This document shows positions 5,353 through 31,338 of a stretch of 36,126 bases of DNA, piece by piece. The notes beneath the pieces are model-generated. The model was not told where the DNA came from. It was given only the letters and a program-made list of their open reading frames with translations, and made no database searches. The number at the start of each line of letters is the position of its first letter. Positions within the stretch are counted from its first letter, which is position 1. The stretch is from Desulfuromonas sp. (GTDB lineage: Bacteria > Desulfobacterota > Desulfuromonadia > Desulfuromonadales > Geopsychrobacteraceae): contig PKUC01000043.1 in the NCBI GenBank assembly GCA_002868865.1, positions 1 to 36,126 of the forward strand, read 5' to 3'. The position numbers and the translations under genes are program-made.

Positions 5353-5964
5353 ATGACCCGGGTCAAGATCTGCGGCATCACAAATCTGCAGGACGCCCTG
5401 CAGGCAGTCGACTGCGGGGCCGACGCCCTCGGCTTTGTCTTTTACGTCAAGAGCCCCCGTGCGGTCGATGCAGGGCAGGTCTGTGAGATTGTCTCGGCGT
5501 TGCCGGCTTTTGTGACCACGGTCGGCCTGTTCGTCAACGAAACGCCGCAGACGATCCGTGATATCGCGGCAATCTGTCGATTGGACCGGGTACAGCTGCA
5601 CGGTGATGAAACACCAGAAGATTGTCGGCAGTTGGCCGATCTGCGAGTAATCAAGGCGTTGCGGGTGCGCGATGCGCATTCTCTGGCGGCAGCGGACGCG
5701 TACCCTGTCGACCTGCTGCTCGATGCCTGGTCCGATGATGCCTATGGTGGCACCGGCGAACGTTTTGATTGGGCACTGGCCCGTGAAGTCACGGCGCGGC
5801 GACCGGTGATTCTCGCCGGCGGTTTGACACCGGCCAACGTCGCCACCGCGGTCGAAACGCTATGCCCCTACGCGGTGGACGTTTCCAGCGGTGTGGAGGG
5901 CGCACCGGGCAAAAAAGATCACACGAAAATGGCGGATTTTATTCGTCAGGTGAGGAACCGATGA
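5353..5964 (+). CDS. trpF: phosphoribosylanthranilate isomerase
   Basis: Amadori rearrangement of phosphoribosylanthranilate, third step of the pathway. 203-residue single-domain barrel. The catalytic pair is visible as Cys7 in VKICGIT and Asp124 in LLLDAW; GFVFY...SPR and the C-terminal DVSSGVE phosphate site are present. The ATG at 5353 follows GGGGACGG, an acceptable ribosome site. The stop overlaps the trpB start (ATGA). In this operon TrpF acts before TrpC although its gene comes after it. Confidence 0.95.
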
Positions 5965-7157
5965 CATACGATTATCCCGATGAGCGGGGACATTTTGGCG
6001 CATACGGCGGCCGCTACGTGGCCGAAACCCTGATGCCGGCGCTGCTGGAACTGGAGCAGGCCTACCGCCAGGTGCAGAACGATCCGTCGTTTCAGCAGGA
6101 GTTTGACGATTACCTGCGCAACTATGTTGGCCGGCCGAGCCCGCTCTATTTTGCCCGACGCCTCAGTGAAGAGCTCGGCGGTGCGAAGATCTACCTGAAA
6201 CGGGAAGACCTGAACCACACCGGCGCCCACAAGGTCAACAACACCGTCGGCCAGATTCTGCTGGCACGCCGCATGGGGAAAAAGCGCGTGATCGCCGAAA
6301 CCGGCGCCGGCCAGCATGGCGTGGCGACGGCAACGGTGGCGGCGCTGTTCGGCATGGACTGTGAGATCTTCATGGGTAAAGAGGACATCCGCCGCCAGGC
6401 GCTCAACGTCTTCCGCATGAAGCTGCTCGGAGCCAAGGTGCACGAATGCACCAGCGGTACGGCGACCCTCAAGGACGCCATGAACGATGCCCTGCGTCAC
6501 TGGGTCACCCATGTGCGCGACACCTTTTATGTGATCGGCACTGTGGCCGGTCCACACCCTTACCCTGAGATGGTGCGCGACTTTCAGTCAGTGATTGGCC
6601 GTGAGGCAAAACAGCAGATGCTTGAGCAGGCCGGTTGCCTGCCCGATGTGGCGCTAGCCTGCATTGGTGGCGGATCGAACGCCATGGGCCTGTTCTATCC
6701 GCTTGTTCAGGATACCGATGTGCGGCTGGTCGGGGTTGAAGCGGCCGGACTGGGCGTCGATACCGACAAACATGCGGCGTCGATCAGCGCCGGCGCGCCG
6801 GGGGTTCTGCACGGCAACAAGACCTACCTGCTGCAGGACCAGGACGGTCAGATCGAACACGCCCACTCGATTTCGGCCGGTTTGGATTACCCCGGTGTCG
6901 GGCCGGAACACGCCCTGCTCAACGATCTGGGTCGCGGCGAGTATGTTTCGATCACCGACGACGAGGCACTCGAGGCGTTTCAGCGCCTGACCCGCGTTGA
7001 GGGAATTATCCCGGCACTGGAGAGCGCTCACGCCATTGCCCAGGTGATCAAGATGGCACCGACGCTGACACCCGAGCAGTCGATTCTGGTCTGTCTGTCC
7101 GGGCGCGGCGATAAGGATATCCACACCGTTGCTGAAGCGATGGGTGTTGAATTTTAA
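5961..7157 (+). CDS. trpB: tryptophan synthase beta chain
   Basis: Condenses indole with serine; partner of TrpA in the alpha2beta2 complex. 398 residues from the ATG at 5961, which overlaps the trpF stop (ATGA) and gives the usual N-terminus with [22 protein letters not shown] lysine is Lys91 in HTGAHKVNN, the catalytic glutamate is Glu113 in AETGAGQHG, and the phosphate loop GGGSN is at 236-240. The frame remains open 33 codons upstream, but that part lies wholly inside trpF and is rejected. Unusually, the gene for its partner trpA does not follow directly: a helicase gene is placed between them. Confidence 0.97.
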
Positions 7158-7183
7158 CGATCGATGATGTCTTGAGCTGCCGT

Positions 7184-7266
7184 AACGACGGGTCCGGTAT
7201 GGTATCGGATACCGATGACGTGGCTTTATGGCAAGGATCGTTTCGGCGGACCCGTCGTTTGACGGG
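7184..7266 (+). promoter_or_regulatory. leader with two mutually exclusive hairpins before the helicase gene
   Basis: AACGACGGGTCCG at 7184-7196 is exactly complementary to CGGACCCGTCGTT at 7247-7259 (13 bp). Inside the loop, GGTATC-g-GATACC at 7201-7213 forms a second small hairpin. The right arm can instead pair downstream: CCCGTC at 7251-7256 with GACGGG at 7261-7266 around a GTTT tetraloop. The two pairings cannot coexist. The downstream hairpin ends 11 bases before the AAAGGAA ribosome site (7277-7283) of the helicase. No U-run follows, so it is not a normal intrinsic terminator; control of translation or mRNA stability is the more likely job. Regulation itself is inference. Confidence 0.5.
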
Positions 7267-7287
7267 CTGCCCTACCAAAGGAACAGG

Positions 7288-8589
7288 ATGAAATTTACTG
7301 AGTTGGATTTGTCGCCGCAGGTGCTGCGCGGCATCGAACAGACCGGTTTTACTGAGCTGACCCCCGTCCAGCAGGAGTCGATCCCGCTGGCATTGCAGGG
7401 CAAAGATGTCGCGGCGCAGGCTCAGACCGGAACCGGAAAGACCGCGGCGTTCTTGATCTCGCTGTTCAGCAAGCTGCTTTCCAGCAAGCGCGAGACCAGC
7501 AGCAATCCCAGGGCATTGGTGATGGCGCCGACCCGTGAACTGGTGGTGCAGATCTGCGAGGACGCCAAAAGCCTCGGCCAGTTTACCGGCCTGAAGGTGC
7601 AGCCGATCTTCGGCGGGATGGATTATGAGAAACAGCGTCAAGCATTAAAGGACGGTGTTGACGTGATTGTCGCCACCCCGGGGCGGTTGATCGACTACTA
7701 CAAGCAACGGGTGTTCTCGATGCATCGTGTCGAGTCGCTGGTTATCGATGAAGCCGATCGCATGTTCGATATGGGGTTCATCAAGGACCTGCGTTACATT
7801 CTGCGCAACCTGCCGCCCTTCGACAAGCGTCAGACCATGCTGTTTTCTGCGACCCTGTCGCCACAGGTAATGGAGCTGGCCTACGAATTCATGGACCTGG
7901 CGGAGAAGGTGCAGATCGAACCGGAGCAGGTCACCGCGGAAGGGATCGATCAGATCCTCTACCATGTTTCACGCCGGGAAAAATTCGCCCTGCTGCTTGG
8001 CCTGCTCAAGTTGGAGAAGGAGGTCGAGCGGGTTCTTTTGTTCGTCAATACCAAGGCCGAAGCCGAACGGCTGGATGCTCTCCTCAATGCCAATAATGTG
8101 CCCTGTGGTGTGCTGTCCGGAGATGTCCCCCAGAAGAAGCGGATGCGTCTTCTGGAACGTTTCAGGGACGGATCTCTGACCCACCTGGTTGCGACCGATG
8201 TGGCTTCGAGGGGAATCCATGTTGATAACGTCACCCACGTTGTTAACTACGACCTGCCTCAGGATCGCGAAGATTATGTCCATCGCATCGGACGGACTGC
8301 CAGAGCCGGAGCCAAGGGGCGTGCGATCAGTTTCGCCGACGAGGAGATGGTTTATGTGCTGGACGAGATTGAATCCTATCTGGGGAGTAAAATCCCCAGC
8401 ATGATGCCGATCGATGAAGAATTCTGTTTCGATTACAAGCGTGCCCACGTCAAGCGTAAGAAACCGTCGGTCGATAATAAAAGCGGCAAACCGCCCGGTT
8501 CGAAGCGACGACCGCCTCGCAGGAGAACCCGGGGTGGTGGCGCGGCGTCTGGAAAAAAACCGGTCGCGGAGAAACCAAAGACAACCTAG
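7288..8589 (+). CDS. DEAD-box ATP-dependent RNA helicase
   Basis: ATP-dependent RNA unwinding protein of the RhlB/RhlE/SrmB type. 433 residues from the ATG at 7288, which has AAAGGAACAGG just upstream; a further in-frame ATG at 7228 has no ribosome site and adds 20 residues unlike the family. The Q motif is around 21-28, Walker A AQTGTGKT at 45-52, PTREL at 81-85, DEAD at 154-157, SAT at 187-189, and HRIGRTAR in domain 2. The last 50 or so residues are a basic, low-complexity tail (KRRPPRRRTRGGG) of the kind that adds RNA affinity. It lies between trpB and trpA, with a structured leader and a 12-base palindrome marking its two flanks. The exact subfamily cannot be fixed by eye, so no symbol is given. 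Confidence 0.93.
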   Translation: MKFTELDLSPQVLRGIEQTGFTELTPVQQESIPLALQGKDVAAQAQTGTGKTAAFLISLFSKLLSSKRETSSNPRALVMAPTRELVVQICEDAKSLGQFTGLKVQPIFGGMDYEKQRQALKDGVDVIVATPGRLIDYYKQRVFSMHRVESLVIDEADRMFDMGFIKDLRYILRNLPPFDKRQTMLFSATLSPQVMELAYEFMDLAEKVQIEPEQVTAEGIDQILYHVSRREKFALLLGLLKLEKEVERVLLFVNTKAEAERLDALLNANNVPCGVLSGDVPQKKRMRLLERFRDGSLTHLVATDVASRGIHVDNVTHVVNYDLPQDREDYVHRIGRTARAGAKGRAISFADEEMVYVLDEIESYLGSKIPSMMPIDEEFCFDYKRAHVKRKKPSVDNKSGKPPGSKRRPPRRRTRGGGAASGKKPVAEKPKTT

Positions 8590-8625
8590 CCGGTTTTGTG
8601 GAGTCGGAAGGAACGATCAATTTCT

Positions 8626-8643
8626 GGTACTCTATAGAGTGCC
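8626..8643 (+). promoter_or_regulatory. palindrome directly upstream of trpA
   Basis: ACTCTATAGAGT at 8629-8640 is a perfect 12-base palindrome. As RNA it extends to GGU...GCC (8626-8643) with one G-U pair, ending a few bases before the trpA ribosome site GGAG (8649-8652). It could be an operator, or a small hairpin affecting trpA translation. No clear -35/-10 pair accompanies it. Confidence 0.35.
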
Positions 8644-8655
8644 GGGTTGGAGCTT

Positions 8656-9459
8656 ATGACACGGATAGAGACTGTTTTTTCACAGTTAAAGCAGGCTGGG
8701 CAACCCGGGCTGATCCCGTTTATTACCGCGGGTGATCCCGATCTGAAGACAACCGCCAATCTGATTCGGACCTTGGCGAACGCCGGTGCTGACCTGATCG
8801 AGCTGGGGGTGCCGTTTTCCGACCCGATGGCGGATGGGCCGACGATTCAGGCCGCTTCGGAGCGTGCTTTGACCGGTGGAACGACCCTGAAGTCGGTTCT
8901 GGATCTTGTCGCCGAGGTGCGGCGCGACTGTCAGGTGCCGCTGGTGTTGATGGGGTACTACAACCCGGTGTTTCGCTACGGGATTGAAGCGTTCGCCCGC
9001 GATGCGGCCGAGGCCGGAGTGGACGGCGTTCTGCTGGTCGATCTGCCCCCCGAGGAGGCGGGCGAGATCAGCGCTCCGCTACAGGAGGCGGGGATCGCCA
9101 TGATTACCCTGCTGGCACCGACGACGCCGGCGAGGCGGATGAAACGCCTGGCCGCGGCGGCTGAAGGCTATCTCTATTACGTGTCGATGACGGGGGTCAC
9201 AGGGAGCGCCCGGATCAGTCCCGATGAGATCCAAGTCGCCGTTGAAGAACTGCAGGCGATGGCGCGGGTGCCGGTCGGTGTCGGGTTCGGCATTACCACC
9301 GCTGAGGATGCTGCGGCCGTCGGCCGTTTTGCCGATGCAGTGGTAGTCGGCAGCGCTCTAGTGCGCATTGTTGAAAAATATGGTGGCAGTGAAGAACTGC
9401 TGCCCCGCGTTAAGCAGTTCATGTCCGAACTGAAGGCGGGGTTGGCGGACTGTCGATAA
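8656..9459 (+). CDS. trpA: tryptophan synthase alpha chain
   Basis: Cleaves indole-3-glycerol phosphate and passes indole through the tunnel to TrpB. 267 residues from the ATG at 8656, giving MTRIETVFSQLK; the TTG at 8647 would add three residues and is less likely. The catalytic residues fall at the canonical positions, Glu49 in IELGVPFSDP and Asp60 in ADGPTIQ, and PFITAGDPD is at 21-29. GVGFGI and the phosphate-binding VVGSALV stretch are near the C-terminus. The short gap to the helicase (66 bases) holds a palindrome and no terminator, so trpA may be read from the operon promoter, from a promoter inside it, or both. Confidence 0.96.
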   Translation: MTRIETVFSQLKQAGQPGLIPFITAGDPDLKTTANLIRTLANAGADLIELGVPFSDPMADGPTIQAASERALTGGTTLKSVLDLVAEVRRDCQVPLVLMGYYNPVFRYGIEAFARDAAEAGVDGVLLVDLPPEEAGEISAPLQEAGIAMITLLAPTTPARRMKRLAAAAEGYLYYVSMTGVTGSARISPDEIQVAVEELQAMARVPVGVGFGITTAEDAAAVGRFADAVVVGSALVRIVEKYGGSEELLPRVKQFMSELKAGLADCR

Positions 9460-20375: not shown

Positions 20376-21050
20376 ATGCTGAAGCTCCTGACGGAAAATT
20401 GGACCCTGAAACTGACCTCGCTGGTGTTCGCCCTGATTCTGTGGATGTTCATCATGGGCGAACGGCGTCTTGAGGTTGGCTATGCGGTGCCGCTGCACCT
20501 GCAGAACGTCCCTGAGCAGCTGATGATCGCCAATGAGGTTCCCAGTCTGGTAGATGTGCGTATCAGCGGACCGCGGACCTTGCTGCTGAAGGTCAATCCC
20601 AACGATATGAGCATCGGTGTCGACCTGACCGACCTGAAGCCGGGGTTGACGACCTTTAAACGCCTTGAAGAAAAACTCAACATTCCGAGCGGGTTGCGCG
20701 TGACTCGCCTGTCCCCGTCCTATGTCGACATTAAACTCGACCGGATTCGGGAAAAGAGGATTCCGATCAAGGTCGTGCTGGAGGGTGCCCCTCCAGCCGG
20801 GTTTCGTCTCGCTGGCCTGACGGCGTCCCCCGAACAGGCGGTGATCGTCGGCGCGGAAAGTGAGCTCAAACGTATTTCGGAAGTGGCAACTGAGCCGGTC
20901 GACCTGTCCGGGGTTCAGGAGAGTTTTACCCTGCTGGTCCCTCTGCTTCACGAGGGAACCTACACGCGGATCAAAGATGAACAAACCACGGAAATTCACG
21001 TCAACGTAGAAGCCCGAACTGGAAGCCAGCGTGCACCGGCCGGAAATTAA
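20376..21050 (+). CDS. cdaR: YbbR-like domain protein, CdaA regulator (CdaR)
   Basis: Extracytoplasmic regulator of CdaA in the organisms studied. 224 residues: one N-terminal TM helix at about 13-30 ([16 protein letters not shown]), then YbbR-type repeats of about 80 residues rich in beta strands ([15 protein letters not shown]..., VDLTDLKPG..., IPIKVVLEG...). Firmicute CdaR usually has four YbbR units; the length here suggests about two to three. The gene starts 3 bases after the cdaA stop with AAGGGG before it. The regulatory role is inferred from family and position. Confidence 0.85.
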
Positions 21051-29658: not shown

Positions 29659-29733
29659 ATTGGAATATATCACCTTTAGGTAGATGCCACGTTTCGCCTT
29701 TTGTTCTGACATTGATTCTGAATGGAGGTAAGC

Positions 29734-29889
29734 ATGAAGTGTCCCAAGTGTAAAGGTCGCATGTATTCTGAGAAGTACTATGTATTCGTACGCACGTATG
29801 ATGCCTGGAAGTGTTCCTCCTGTGGTGAGGTGCTCGACTCGACAATTCTGGCCAACAGGGCCCGCAGCACAGTCGGCCTGGTCGCTTAG
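29734..29889 (+). CDS. 51-residue zinc-ribbon protein
   Basis: Small open frame below the usual length cut-off but well supported: a consensus ribosome site GGAGGT (29724-29729) four bases before the ATG, and a strong terminator 35 bases after the stop. The protein begins MKCPKCKGRMYSEKYY and has Cys3, Cys6, Cys27 and Cys30 as CPKC...CSSC, a complete four-cysteine zinc ribbon with aromatic residues between the knuckles, then a basic C-terminal tail (ANRARS). It has no TM or signal peptide, so it is cytosolic. Comparable single zinc ribbons bind nucleic acid or other proteins; the function here is unknown. It stands alone between the HhH gene and the aminotransferase promoter. Confidence 0.82.
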   Translation: MKCPKCKGRMYSEKYYVFVRTYDAWKCSSCGEVLDSTILANRARSTVGLVA

Positions 29890-29920
29890 CCCCAATTTTT
29901 GATTGTCTGCTGTTCCTCTG

Positions 29921-29953
29921 AAAGGCCGGGATTTCCCGGCTTTTCTCTTTTTT
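29921..29953 (+). terminator. intrinsic terminator after the zinc-ribbon gene
   Basis: GCCGGG (29925-29930) pairs with CCCGGC (29935-29940) around an ATTT loop; A-residues before and T-residues after extend the stem, and TTTTCTCTTTTTT follows. It ends the small transcript before the aminotransferase promoter. Confidence 0.88.
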
Positions 29954-29974: not shown

Positions 29975-30003
29975 TTGAACATTTTACCTGCTGGACGTAT
30001 AAG
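29975..30003 (+). promoter_or_regulatory. sigma-70 promoter of the aminotransferase gene
   Basis: TTGAAC (29975-29980) and TATAAG (29998-30003) with an exact 17-bp spacer, the best sigma-70-like signal on the plus strand of this window. The expected start is near 30010, inside the palindrome at 30003-30030, and the leader is about 36 bases long. Confidence 0.72.
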
Positions 30004-30030
30004 TTTGTCGGATGTCGACATTCGACAAAC
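30003..30030 (+). promoter_or_regulatory. 28-bp palindromic operator overlapping the transcription start
   Basis: GTTTGTCG (30003-30010) is mirrored by CGACAAAC (30023-30030), and the centre ATGTCGACAT (30012-30021) is itself a perfect palindrome; only the pair 30011/30022 (G/T) breaks the symmetry, so 13 of 14 pairs match. It begins at the last base of the -10 and ends just before the ribosome site GAGAGGAG. The position fits a repressor site; in RNA the same sequence would form a strong hairpin in front of the ribosome site. The binding protein is not known. Confidence 0.7.
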
Positions 30031-30045
30031 GAGAGGAGCGTCTTT

Positions 30046-31338
30046 ATGTTCAAGAGTGAGTATGAGGTTCACCTAAATCTGAATGTTCGCGGGTTGCCCC
30101 TGTCTGCAACTCTGGATATCAACGAGCAGAGCGCCCGGCTTCAGCAGGAAGGTCGCCAGATCTATCGGCTAGGTCTCGGGCAGTCTCCTTTCCCCGTTCC
30201 TGAAGGGGTCGTCAGGGCGCTGCAGGAAAATGCGTTTCAGAAGGACTATCTTCCGGTCAAGGGGCTGCCGGCTTTGCGCGACGCTGTGGCCAGCTACTAT
30301 CAACGAACCCAAGGGGTAAACTTCAACGGAGGCGATATCCTTATTGGCCCCGGATCGAAGGAGCTGATGTTTCTTCTGCAGATTGCCTATTACGGTGAGC
30401 TGGCCATTCCCACGCCGAGTTGGGTTTCGTATGCTCCCCAGGCGCATATCGCCGGGCGCCCAGTGCGCTGGCTGCAAACCCGGCAGCAGAACCGGTGGTT
30501 ATTGATGCCGGACGAACTCGAGCATCTGGGGCGGATCGACCCAACCAAGCCCCGTATCGTTATCCTCAACTACCCGAATAATCCAACGGGGTGCAGTTAT
30601 ACCTCCGAGCAGCTTCGTGAACTCGCCGATGTTGCACGACGCTATAAGATGATTGTTCTTTCTGATGAGATTTATGGGGAGCTGGCATTCGCCGGAGATC
30701 ATCAGTCGATCGCGCGCTACTATCCTGAAGGGACCATTGTTGCCAGCGGTCTCAGCAAGTGGGCTGGTGCTGGGGGATGGAGGCTGGGGACTTTTGCCTT
30801 CCCGGAGCCGCTGCGGTGGTTGCTCGATGCCATGGCGGTTGTGGCCAGCGAAACCTTTACCGCAACCAGCGCTCCGATACAGTATGCCGCTGTTGAGGCC
30901 TTCCGCGGGAGCGATGATTTAGAGCGGTATCTGGACAATTCGCGGCGAATTCTCAGCCGATTGTCGTCATGGATTTGGCGTCAGTTTTGCGCGGCGGGGA
31001 TCAGGGTTGCCAGGCCGGATGGGGCGTTCTATATGTTCCCCGATTTCGAATCAGAGCGGGATCGCCTGCGGCAGCGGGGAATCGTCAACAGTACAGATCT
31101 GTGCCGGCGGTTGTTGGATGAAACGGGTGTTGCGGTGTTGCCGGGAGTCTGCTTTGGGCGGCCCGCCACCGAGTTAACGGTTCGCCTGGCGTTTGTTGAT
31201 TTCGACGGAGGGACCGCTCTTAAGGCCGTAGTAGACAGGGCAGAAGAAGTGGTCTCCGATGCCTTTTTGTACGAACAGTGTGGGCGAGTGACGACAGCGA
31301 TCGAACGGATGGTGGCCTGGGTAAAACAGCCCGGTTAG
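30046..31338 (+). CDS. class I/II pyridoxal-phosphate aminotransferase
   Basis: Fold-type I aminotransferase; substrate not determined. 430 residues. PLP site residues are visible: Asn179-Pro180 in LNYPNNPTGC, Asp207 and Tyr210 in LSDEIYGELAF, and the Schiff-base Lys238 in ASGLSKWAGAGGWRLG; an Arg near the C-terminus in ELTVRLAFVDFDG would bind the substrate carboxylate. The N-terminal RGLPLSATLDINEQSARL and the conserved GLGQSPFPVPE resemble aspartate/alanine-type enzymes. It stands alone with its own promoter, a palindromic operator, and a terminator, so it is probably an individually regulated enzyme. The ATG at 30046 follows GAGAGGAG. Confidence 0.88.
   Translation: MFKSEYEVHLNLNVRGLPLSATLDINEQSARLQQEGRQIYRLGLGQSPFPVPEGVVRALQENAFQKDYLPVKGLPALRDAVASYYQRTQGVNFNGGDILIGPGSKELMFLLQIAYYGELAIPTPSWVSYAPQAHIAGRPVRWLQTRQQNRWLLMPDELEHLGRIDPTKPRIVILNYPNNPTGCSYTSEQLRELADVARRYKMIVLSDEIYGELAFAGDHQSIARYYPEGTIVASGLSKWAGAGGWRLGTFAFPEPLRWLLDAMAVVASETFTATSAPIQYAAVEAFRGSDDLERYLDNSRRILSRLSSWIWRQFCAAGIRVARPDGAFYMFPDFESERDRLRQRGIVNSTDLCRRLLDETGVAVLPGVCFGRPATELTVRLAFVDFDGGTALKAVVDRAEEVVSDAFLYEQCGRVTTAIERMVAWVKQPG

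Follow-up and report, generated by a model that had tools for sequence, protein, structure and literature searches.

The 28-bp near-perfect palindrome GTTTGTCGGATGTCGACATTCGACAAAC at positions 30003-30030 of the 36,126-bp stretch of Desulfuromonas sp. DNA analysed here (the window) is probably, at roughly 85%, the operator of a FadR/FCD-type GntR regulator that is encoded elsewhere in the same genome (G000:C16) and would repress the promoter of a class I/II PLP-dependent aminotransferase gene (AT; 430 aa, 30046-31338, plus strand). The predicted regulator is a GntR/FCD protein, which we name with good confidence because its gene adjoins AT in some relatives and co-occurs with the site. The kind of system is already known, namely a FadR-subfamily GntR operator, and the conserved unit is refined here to the central TGTCGACA with its flanking boxes.

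The two arms of the palindrome, 30003-30016 and 30017-30030, abut directly and match at 13 of their 14 positions, exactly as a sequence-only reading of this DNA had described, and they hold four half-site boxes (TGTC at 30006 and 30013, GACA at 30017 and 30024). No other gapless palindrome with at least 12 of 14 pairs was found in a scan of the 36,126 bp, and 40 first-order Markov simulations gave a mean of 0.025 gapless 28-bp palindromes per window with at least 13 of 14 pairs, so the earlier statement that such symmetry is unlikely by chance was justified. The core TGTCGACA (30013-30020) is invariant in the aligned relatives, and together with the downstream box it makes up a conserved 15-mer, TGTCGACATTCGACA (30013-30027, plus strand), of which a second, overlapping copy with one mismatch on the minus strand (30006-30020) completes the full palindrome. 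Direct reading also confirmed the proposed sigma-70-like promoter TTGAAC-17-TATAAG (29975-30003, plus strand; 9 of 12 consensus bases), with TTGAAC at 29975-29980, a 17-bp spacer and TATAAG at 29998-30003, followed by the palindrome, GAGGAG and the AT start codon at 30046. Position 30003 is shared, being the last base of TATAAG and the first of the palindrome, and 15 bp separate the end of the palindrome from the ATG. The promoter is not in the program-made promoter list, the scan for which required T at the last -10 position. An intrinsic-terminator-like hairpin at 29920-29945 (plus strand) sets the AT promoter apart from the genes upstream, including a 55-aa ORF with two CxxC pairs (CPKCKGRMYSEKYYVF..WKCSSCGEV; 29722-29889, plus strand) that lies between a comEA-like gene and AT. 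This small ORF gave only sub-threshold matches in a Pfam search; it probably represents a genuine zinc-ribbon gene, since ORFs that on reading are very similar to it lie upstream of gntR at three loci (L042, L052, and L055).

In the window, the operator spans the region from -10 to about +20, and that AT would be repressed rather than activated we infer from this position only. A GntR protein bound over -10/+1 would block RNA polymerase at the AT promoter, and a small carboxylate or amino acid bound by its FCD domain may release it. The main alternative is that GntR reads the site as an activator or dual regulator and not as a simple repressor; no sequence feature fixes the sign of regulation, and GntR/FCD regulators can act either way. 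We consider this unlikely, because the operator covers -10/+1 in the window and overlaps -10-like elements in many relatives, where, by our reading, the TAATGT that opens the motif overlaps the likely -10 or forms it, behind a TTGACT-like -35, a position typical of repressors.

The sequence-only reading had named a lack of conservation upstream of orthologous aminotransferases as its own refutation test; that comparison was run, and the site is conserved there. In a search of the window's genome and 40 relatives (41 genomes in all), strong AT orthologs (E of 1e-109 or better, 46-72% identity) were found in 19 relatives, while a twentieth carries a broken copy (G013:C40:66109-66571; L032/L058) of which only the N-terminal and C-terminal parts match and whose promoter operator is still recognisable with 2 mismatches. 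None of the matches listed for AT itself in an NCBIfam search (25 of 66 models) reached its cutoff. A GntR/FCD gene stands directly upstream of AT and co-directional with it in 6 of the 20 relatives (G020, G022, G023, G028, G024, and G016) and directly downstream in one (G011), and in the remaining 13 no gntR adjoins AT. Where no gntR stands in front, the AT promoter mostly carries TGTCGACATTCGACA or close variants of it; where gntR does precede AT, the motif stands ahead of gntR.

The site and the regulator also follow each other across genomes. A GntR profile built from seven proteins linked to AT in relatives was run on the 41 genomes and identified a clear ortholog in 22 of them, the window's included (best match 317-371 bits); the next GntR-like group scored 132 bits and lower, with the exception of a second copy in G004 (C35, 254 bits), which has no TGTCG/CGACA within 150 bp upstream. 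In all 16 genomes that have both an intact AT and a GntR ortholog, the AT unit has the motif no more than 300 bp upstream of its first gene (no mismatch in 11, one in 3, two in 1, and three in 1), and the count becomes 17 of 17 at up to 3 mismatches when the broken AT of G013 is included. Upstream of AT in the four genomes with no GntR ortholog (G039, G005, G034, and G027), it is absent in every case, the best matches having 5-6 mismatches. In a Markov-shuffled control, 9 of 1,260 upstream regions had a best match with 3 or fewer mismatches. By a hand calculation that ignores kinship, the split of 16/16 against 0/4 would arise by chance once in 4,845, a figure that overstates independence because the genomes share ancestry. 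Among the genomes with a GntR ortholog, the core TGTCGACA is found upstream of all 11 AT genes not preceded by gntR (the window's own and the broken one included), and 20 of the 22 gntR orthologs have it upstream as well. The two exceptions are G011, in which gntR comes after AT and behind the AT operator, and the window's genome. The predicted copy of the site before the regulator's own gene is thus present in relatives and missing from the genome for which it had been predicted.

The GntR ortholog of the window's genome is encoded at G000:C16:10632-11270 (minus strand), on another contig than AT, which agrees with the earlier statement that no regulator gene is adjacent, even though gntR adjoins AT in some relatives. 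Both its GntR and its FCD domain score above the Pfam cutoff, as they do in two linked regulators of relatives. The protein is up to 71% identical to its orthologs, and its SRAPIREA segment, which we take to be the recognition helix, is common to most of them. Its only NCBIfam match at E of 1e-10 or lower is to phnR_burk (TIGR03338; residues 11-203, E 1.8e-27), and membership in that family was rejected because the score, 96 bits, is below the curated cutoff of 271.5. No site was found in the 800 bp upstream of this gntR (best match 5 mismatches), so that the link between regulator and site in the window's genome rests on orthology. The gene is followed by one that reads as hisI-like, and a KamA-family gene, its kinship established by search, lies about 1.4 kb away on C16. 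This gntR (L127) stands apart from the KamA-like and glutamine-synthetase neighbours that are common in many relatives. In the congeneric G001, the gntR ortholog is preceded by TGTCGACAGTCGACA and followed by genes of KamA-like and glutamine-synthetase-like type. The KamA-like gene of the window's genome that is 74% identical to the one in G001 lies on C50, with no motif in the 700 bp read upstream. On the same contig (L146, G000:C50:4000-18000), two different KamA-family genes stand in a row at 5741-8864 behind a gene that reads as MarR-like, without an operator.

That the operator is not beside gntR in the window's genome, and that gntR itself lacks one there, would suit another explanation, in which the site is read by a different, unlinked regulator specific for TGTCGA, the motif before gntR being a sign of cross-regulation. 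One candidate would be HgtR, a Geobacter repressor. The motif tracks the GntR ortholog in the comparison given above, and it stands in the promoters of gntR-AT units in three families (f1, f5, and f12), for which autoregulation is the simpler account, and we regard a different regulator as quite improbable.

To describe the operator across genomes, 31 promoters (11 of AT and 20 of gntR) were aligned on the core, leaving out the two core-less gntR promoters of G011 and the window's genome. The comparison supports the earlier claim of a protein operator built of repeated TGTCG/CGACA half-sites on the AT promoter, but it changes the conserved unit, which had been given as GTTTGTCG-N12-CGACAAAC: the outer boxes vary, and it is the central TGTCGACA that is invariant. 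The left TGTC box, 7 bp out, is exact in 15 of the 31 promoters (2 AT, 13 gntR) and the right GACA box in 16 (7 AT, 9 gntR); at least one exact box about 9 nt from the centre is present in 27 (8 of 11 AT, 19 of 20 gntR), and both are exact in only four, namely the AT site of the window and three gntR sites. In three AT promoters (L020, L021, and L032), the downstream box is degraded. The window's version of the operator is unusually complete, most relatives keeping three boxes or fewer, and because both of its outer boxes are exact, the symmetry axis of the sequence-only reading coincides with the centre of the full four-box operator. Two GntR protomers would grip the central TGTCGACA, and further protomers would take the flanking TGTC/GACA boxes 7 bp out. 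At L039, in the oriented locus, the interval from about 48 to about 20 bp ahead of gntR holds a run of TCGACA boxes in 7-bp steps (GATGTCGACATTCGACATTCGACAATCGACAACGG).

These features would place the site among FadR-subfamily GntR operators as described by Suvorova et al. (2015; PMC4494728), with which it has in common the core, the boxes about 9 nt from the centre, and a regulator of GntR and FCD domains. The GTCGAC found at the core of the window's site and of the 31 aligned promoters fits the core consensus GTM-N0-1-KAC, and the extra half-sites reported at 7-12 nt from the site centre are weaker boxes, whereas both are exact in the window. The published boxes follow TKGT/ACMA as the common consensus, with exceptions named, while the base before TGT is A in all 31 sites here, giving ATGT. 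NanR-type direct-repeat sites (TGGTATAW repeats, cited in PMC4494728), which also belong to a FadR-subfamily regulator, likewise have more than two serial half-sites, as in the TCGACA run of L039/L070, but they differ in sequence and spacing, and the centre of the window's site is an inverted TGTCGACA instead. According to the same source (PMC4494728), the ligands of FadR-subfamily proteins are small carboxylic acids and similar compounds; its text contains neither 'Desulfuromonas' nor 'TGTC'. 'Desulfuromonadales' was not found in the available part of PMC5343134, nor 'GntR' in that of the Pelobacter carbinolicus genome paper (PMC3543383), and our searches, with RegPrecise and subscription papers outside their scope, found no literature on GntR with an aminotransferase in Desulfuromonas, on glutamate 2,3-aminomutase, or on GntR with lysine 2,3-aminomutase and glutamine synthetase.

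The palindrome might also form an RNA hairpin within the 5' leader and so control stability or translation, and the 58-nt stretch, if transcribed whole, does fold better than all of 200 shuffles (z -3.3). A transcript that starts about 7 nt past the -10 would lose the upstream arm, and its fold is then equalled or bettered by 42 of 200 shuffles (z -0.8). In relatives, moreover, the motif overlaps the likely -10 and stands as far as about 160 bp ahead of the start codon, and we consider a role in RNA very improbable.

The motif is also concentrated at these two genes. Allowing at most one mismatch, TGTCGACATTCGACA has 40 matches on both strands of the 41 genomes, of which 33 lie by coordinates at AT or gntR and 7 elsewhere, against 12 matches for the reversed control pattern; every one of the 14 exact matches precedes AT or gntR. 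Among 136 genomes of the order, 36 have a match to TAATGTCGACATT, a pattern that points to gntR or AT in families f5, f12, and f17 as well; the other matches that were read are mostly inside ORFs, several of them enolase-like, and one (G120) is intergenic at neither AT nor gntR. Within the best 80 of 547 AT-like loci, a set that is not independent because several loci belong to the 41 genomes, 17 carry the motif at up to 2 mismatches within 1.1 kb upstream, under record titles of Desulfuromonas, Desulfuromusa, Geothermobacter, Desulfuromonadales, Desulfuromonadaceae, Deltaproteobacteria, Desulfurellales (the bins L227 and L249), and Deferribacteraceae (the bin L211, motif at -45). The other 63 of the best 80, many of them from other phyla, have no motif within these limits. 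The GntR protein pattern was found in 13 of the best 80, ten of them among the 17 loci with the motif; of the remaining three, L201 and L206 appear to have the motif before gntR, beyond 1.1 kb, and in L241 only about 40 bp of sequence precede gntR. In G056, two contigs (C220 and C473; L181 and L182) each end in a very similar gntR with an operator, as a duplication or a strain variant in the bin.

Within the window's genome, a search for TTTGTCG-N12-CGACAAA, proposed earlier as the way to the regulon, gave no excess at up to 3 mismatches (180 matches per strand against 200 for the reversed control). It has one other exact match there (C98:26944-26969; L279 2945-2970; TTTGTCGAGATGATTAAACCGACAAA), some 35-60 bp upstream of an ORF that its N-terminus suggests is TolC-like. 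This match, although placed as in a promoter, was not counted as a target because the TGTCGACA core is absent, and it is possibly the site of another regulator. When up to 3 mismatches are allowed, the 17-mer ATGTCGACATTCGACAT occurs at 8 places against 3 for the reversed control: two overlapping at AT, five inside ORFs of at least 424 aa, and one (L061) inside a putative 104-aa ORF. A look-alike of TTTGTCG-N12-CGACAAA with 2 mismatches at C57:8708 was rejected, as it lies inside an ORF that reads from its N-terminus as a sugar epimerase. The shorter ATGTCGACATT is found at 5 distinct places, namely the AT promoter and four inside ORFs, with no other copy outside ORFs in the 109 contigs of the assembly. 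A copy at 20722-20732 of the window, inside a coding sequence that reads as YbbR-like, was judged a coincidence. Because no site precedes gntR and no other ATGTCGACATT lies outside ORFs, the AT promoter would be the sole target promoter with a core, as far as this one assembly of 109 contigs shows, autoregulation having apparently been lost. To the idea that the symmetry arose by chance and has no function, for which those four copies inside ORFs might speak, we give practically no credence in view of the 0.025 such palindromes expected per window and the conservation of the site across families.

The neighbours of gntR point to the metabolism that GntR may control. In 9 of 15 regions from relatives, a KamA-like gene comes after gntR, in most cases together with one or two genes for glutamine-synthetase-like proteins, and in the other six (G003, G007, G008, G009, G010, and the second G004 copy), no KamA-like gene follows it. 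KamA and glutamine-synthetase genes are also found at G011, G023, G052, and G050, the last of which (L179, from another family) has gntR, kamA, the glutamine-synthetase gene and AT in a row. A glutamine-type ABC transporter and an asparaginase-like gene, both judged from their N-termini, lie nearby in several relatives. The KamA-like protein of G001 aligns to the lysine 2,3-aminomutase structure 2a5h and passes the broad KamA-family cutoff (292.6 bits against 199.2), but it falls below those of the arginine, lysine, and glutamate 2,3-aminomutase models (372, 348, and 340 bits). Two glutamine-synthetase-like proteins were compared with the GlnA cutoff of 429.15, which one passes (476.7) and the other does not (331.7). 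In relatives, GntR would also control its own gene and the co-directional genes for the KamA-family aminomutase and glutamine-synthetase-like proteins, and such co-control suggests that AT may serve as one step of an amino-acid pathway. That this might be a route to beta-amino acids stays a guess, since none of the specific aminomutase cutoffs was reached.

The computation shows the site, its conservation, its tie to this regulator family, and the presence of the regulator in the window's genome; we infer GntR binding, repression, oligomeric state, ligand, and pathway. Only tentatively, with more doubt than confidence, do we go further and propose a previously undescribed regulon. In it, a FadR-subfamily GntR would occupy four half-sites that abut each other, probably in the form of a tetramer or of two cooperating dimers, and would sense a product of a pathway of KamA-family aminomutase, glutamine synthetase, and aminotransferase, perhaps a beta-amino-acid osmolyte route. 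The regulon would extend over Desulfuromonadales, Desulfurellales, and one Deferribacteraceae bin, and in the window's genome gntR would have moved and lost its own operator, with AT kept as the single core-bearing target.

The finding turns an orphan palindrome into a proposed pair of regulator and target that can be tested in isolates. Two of these, Desulfuromusa kysingii DSM 7343 and Geothermobacter hydrogeniphilus HR-1, carry the site and a gntR that precedes AT. The predicted regulon would tie AT, itself an uncharacterised enzyme, to a KamA-family aminomutase and to glutamine-synthetase-like ligases, and it may thereby offer a handle on the pathway that they form.
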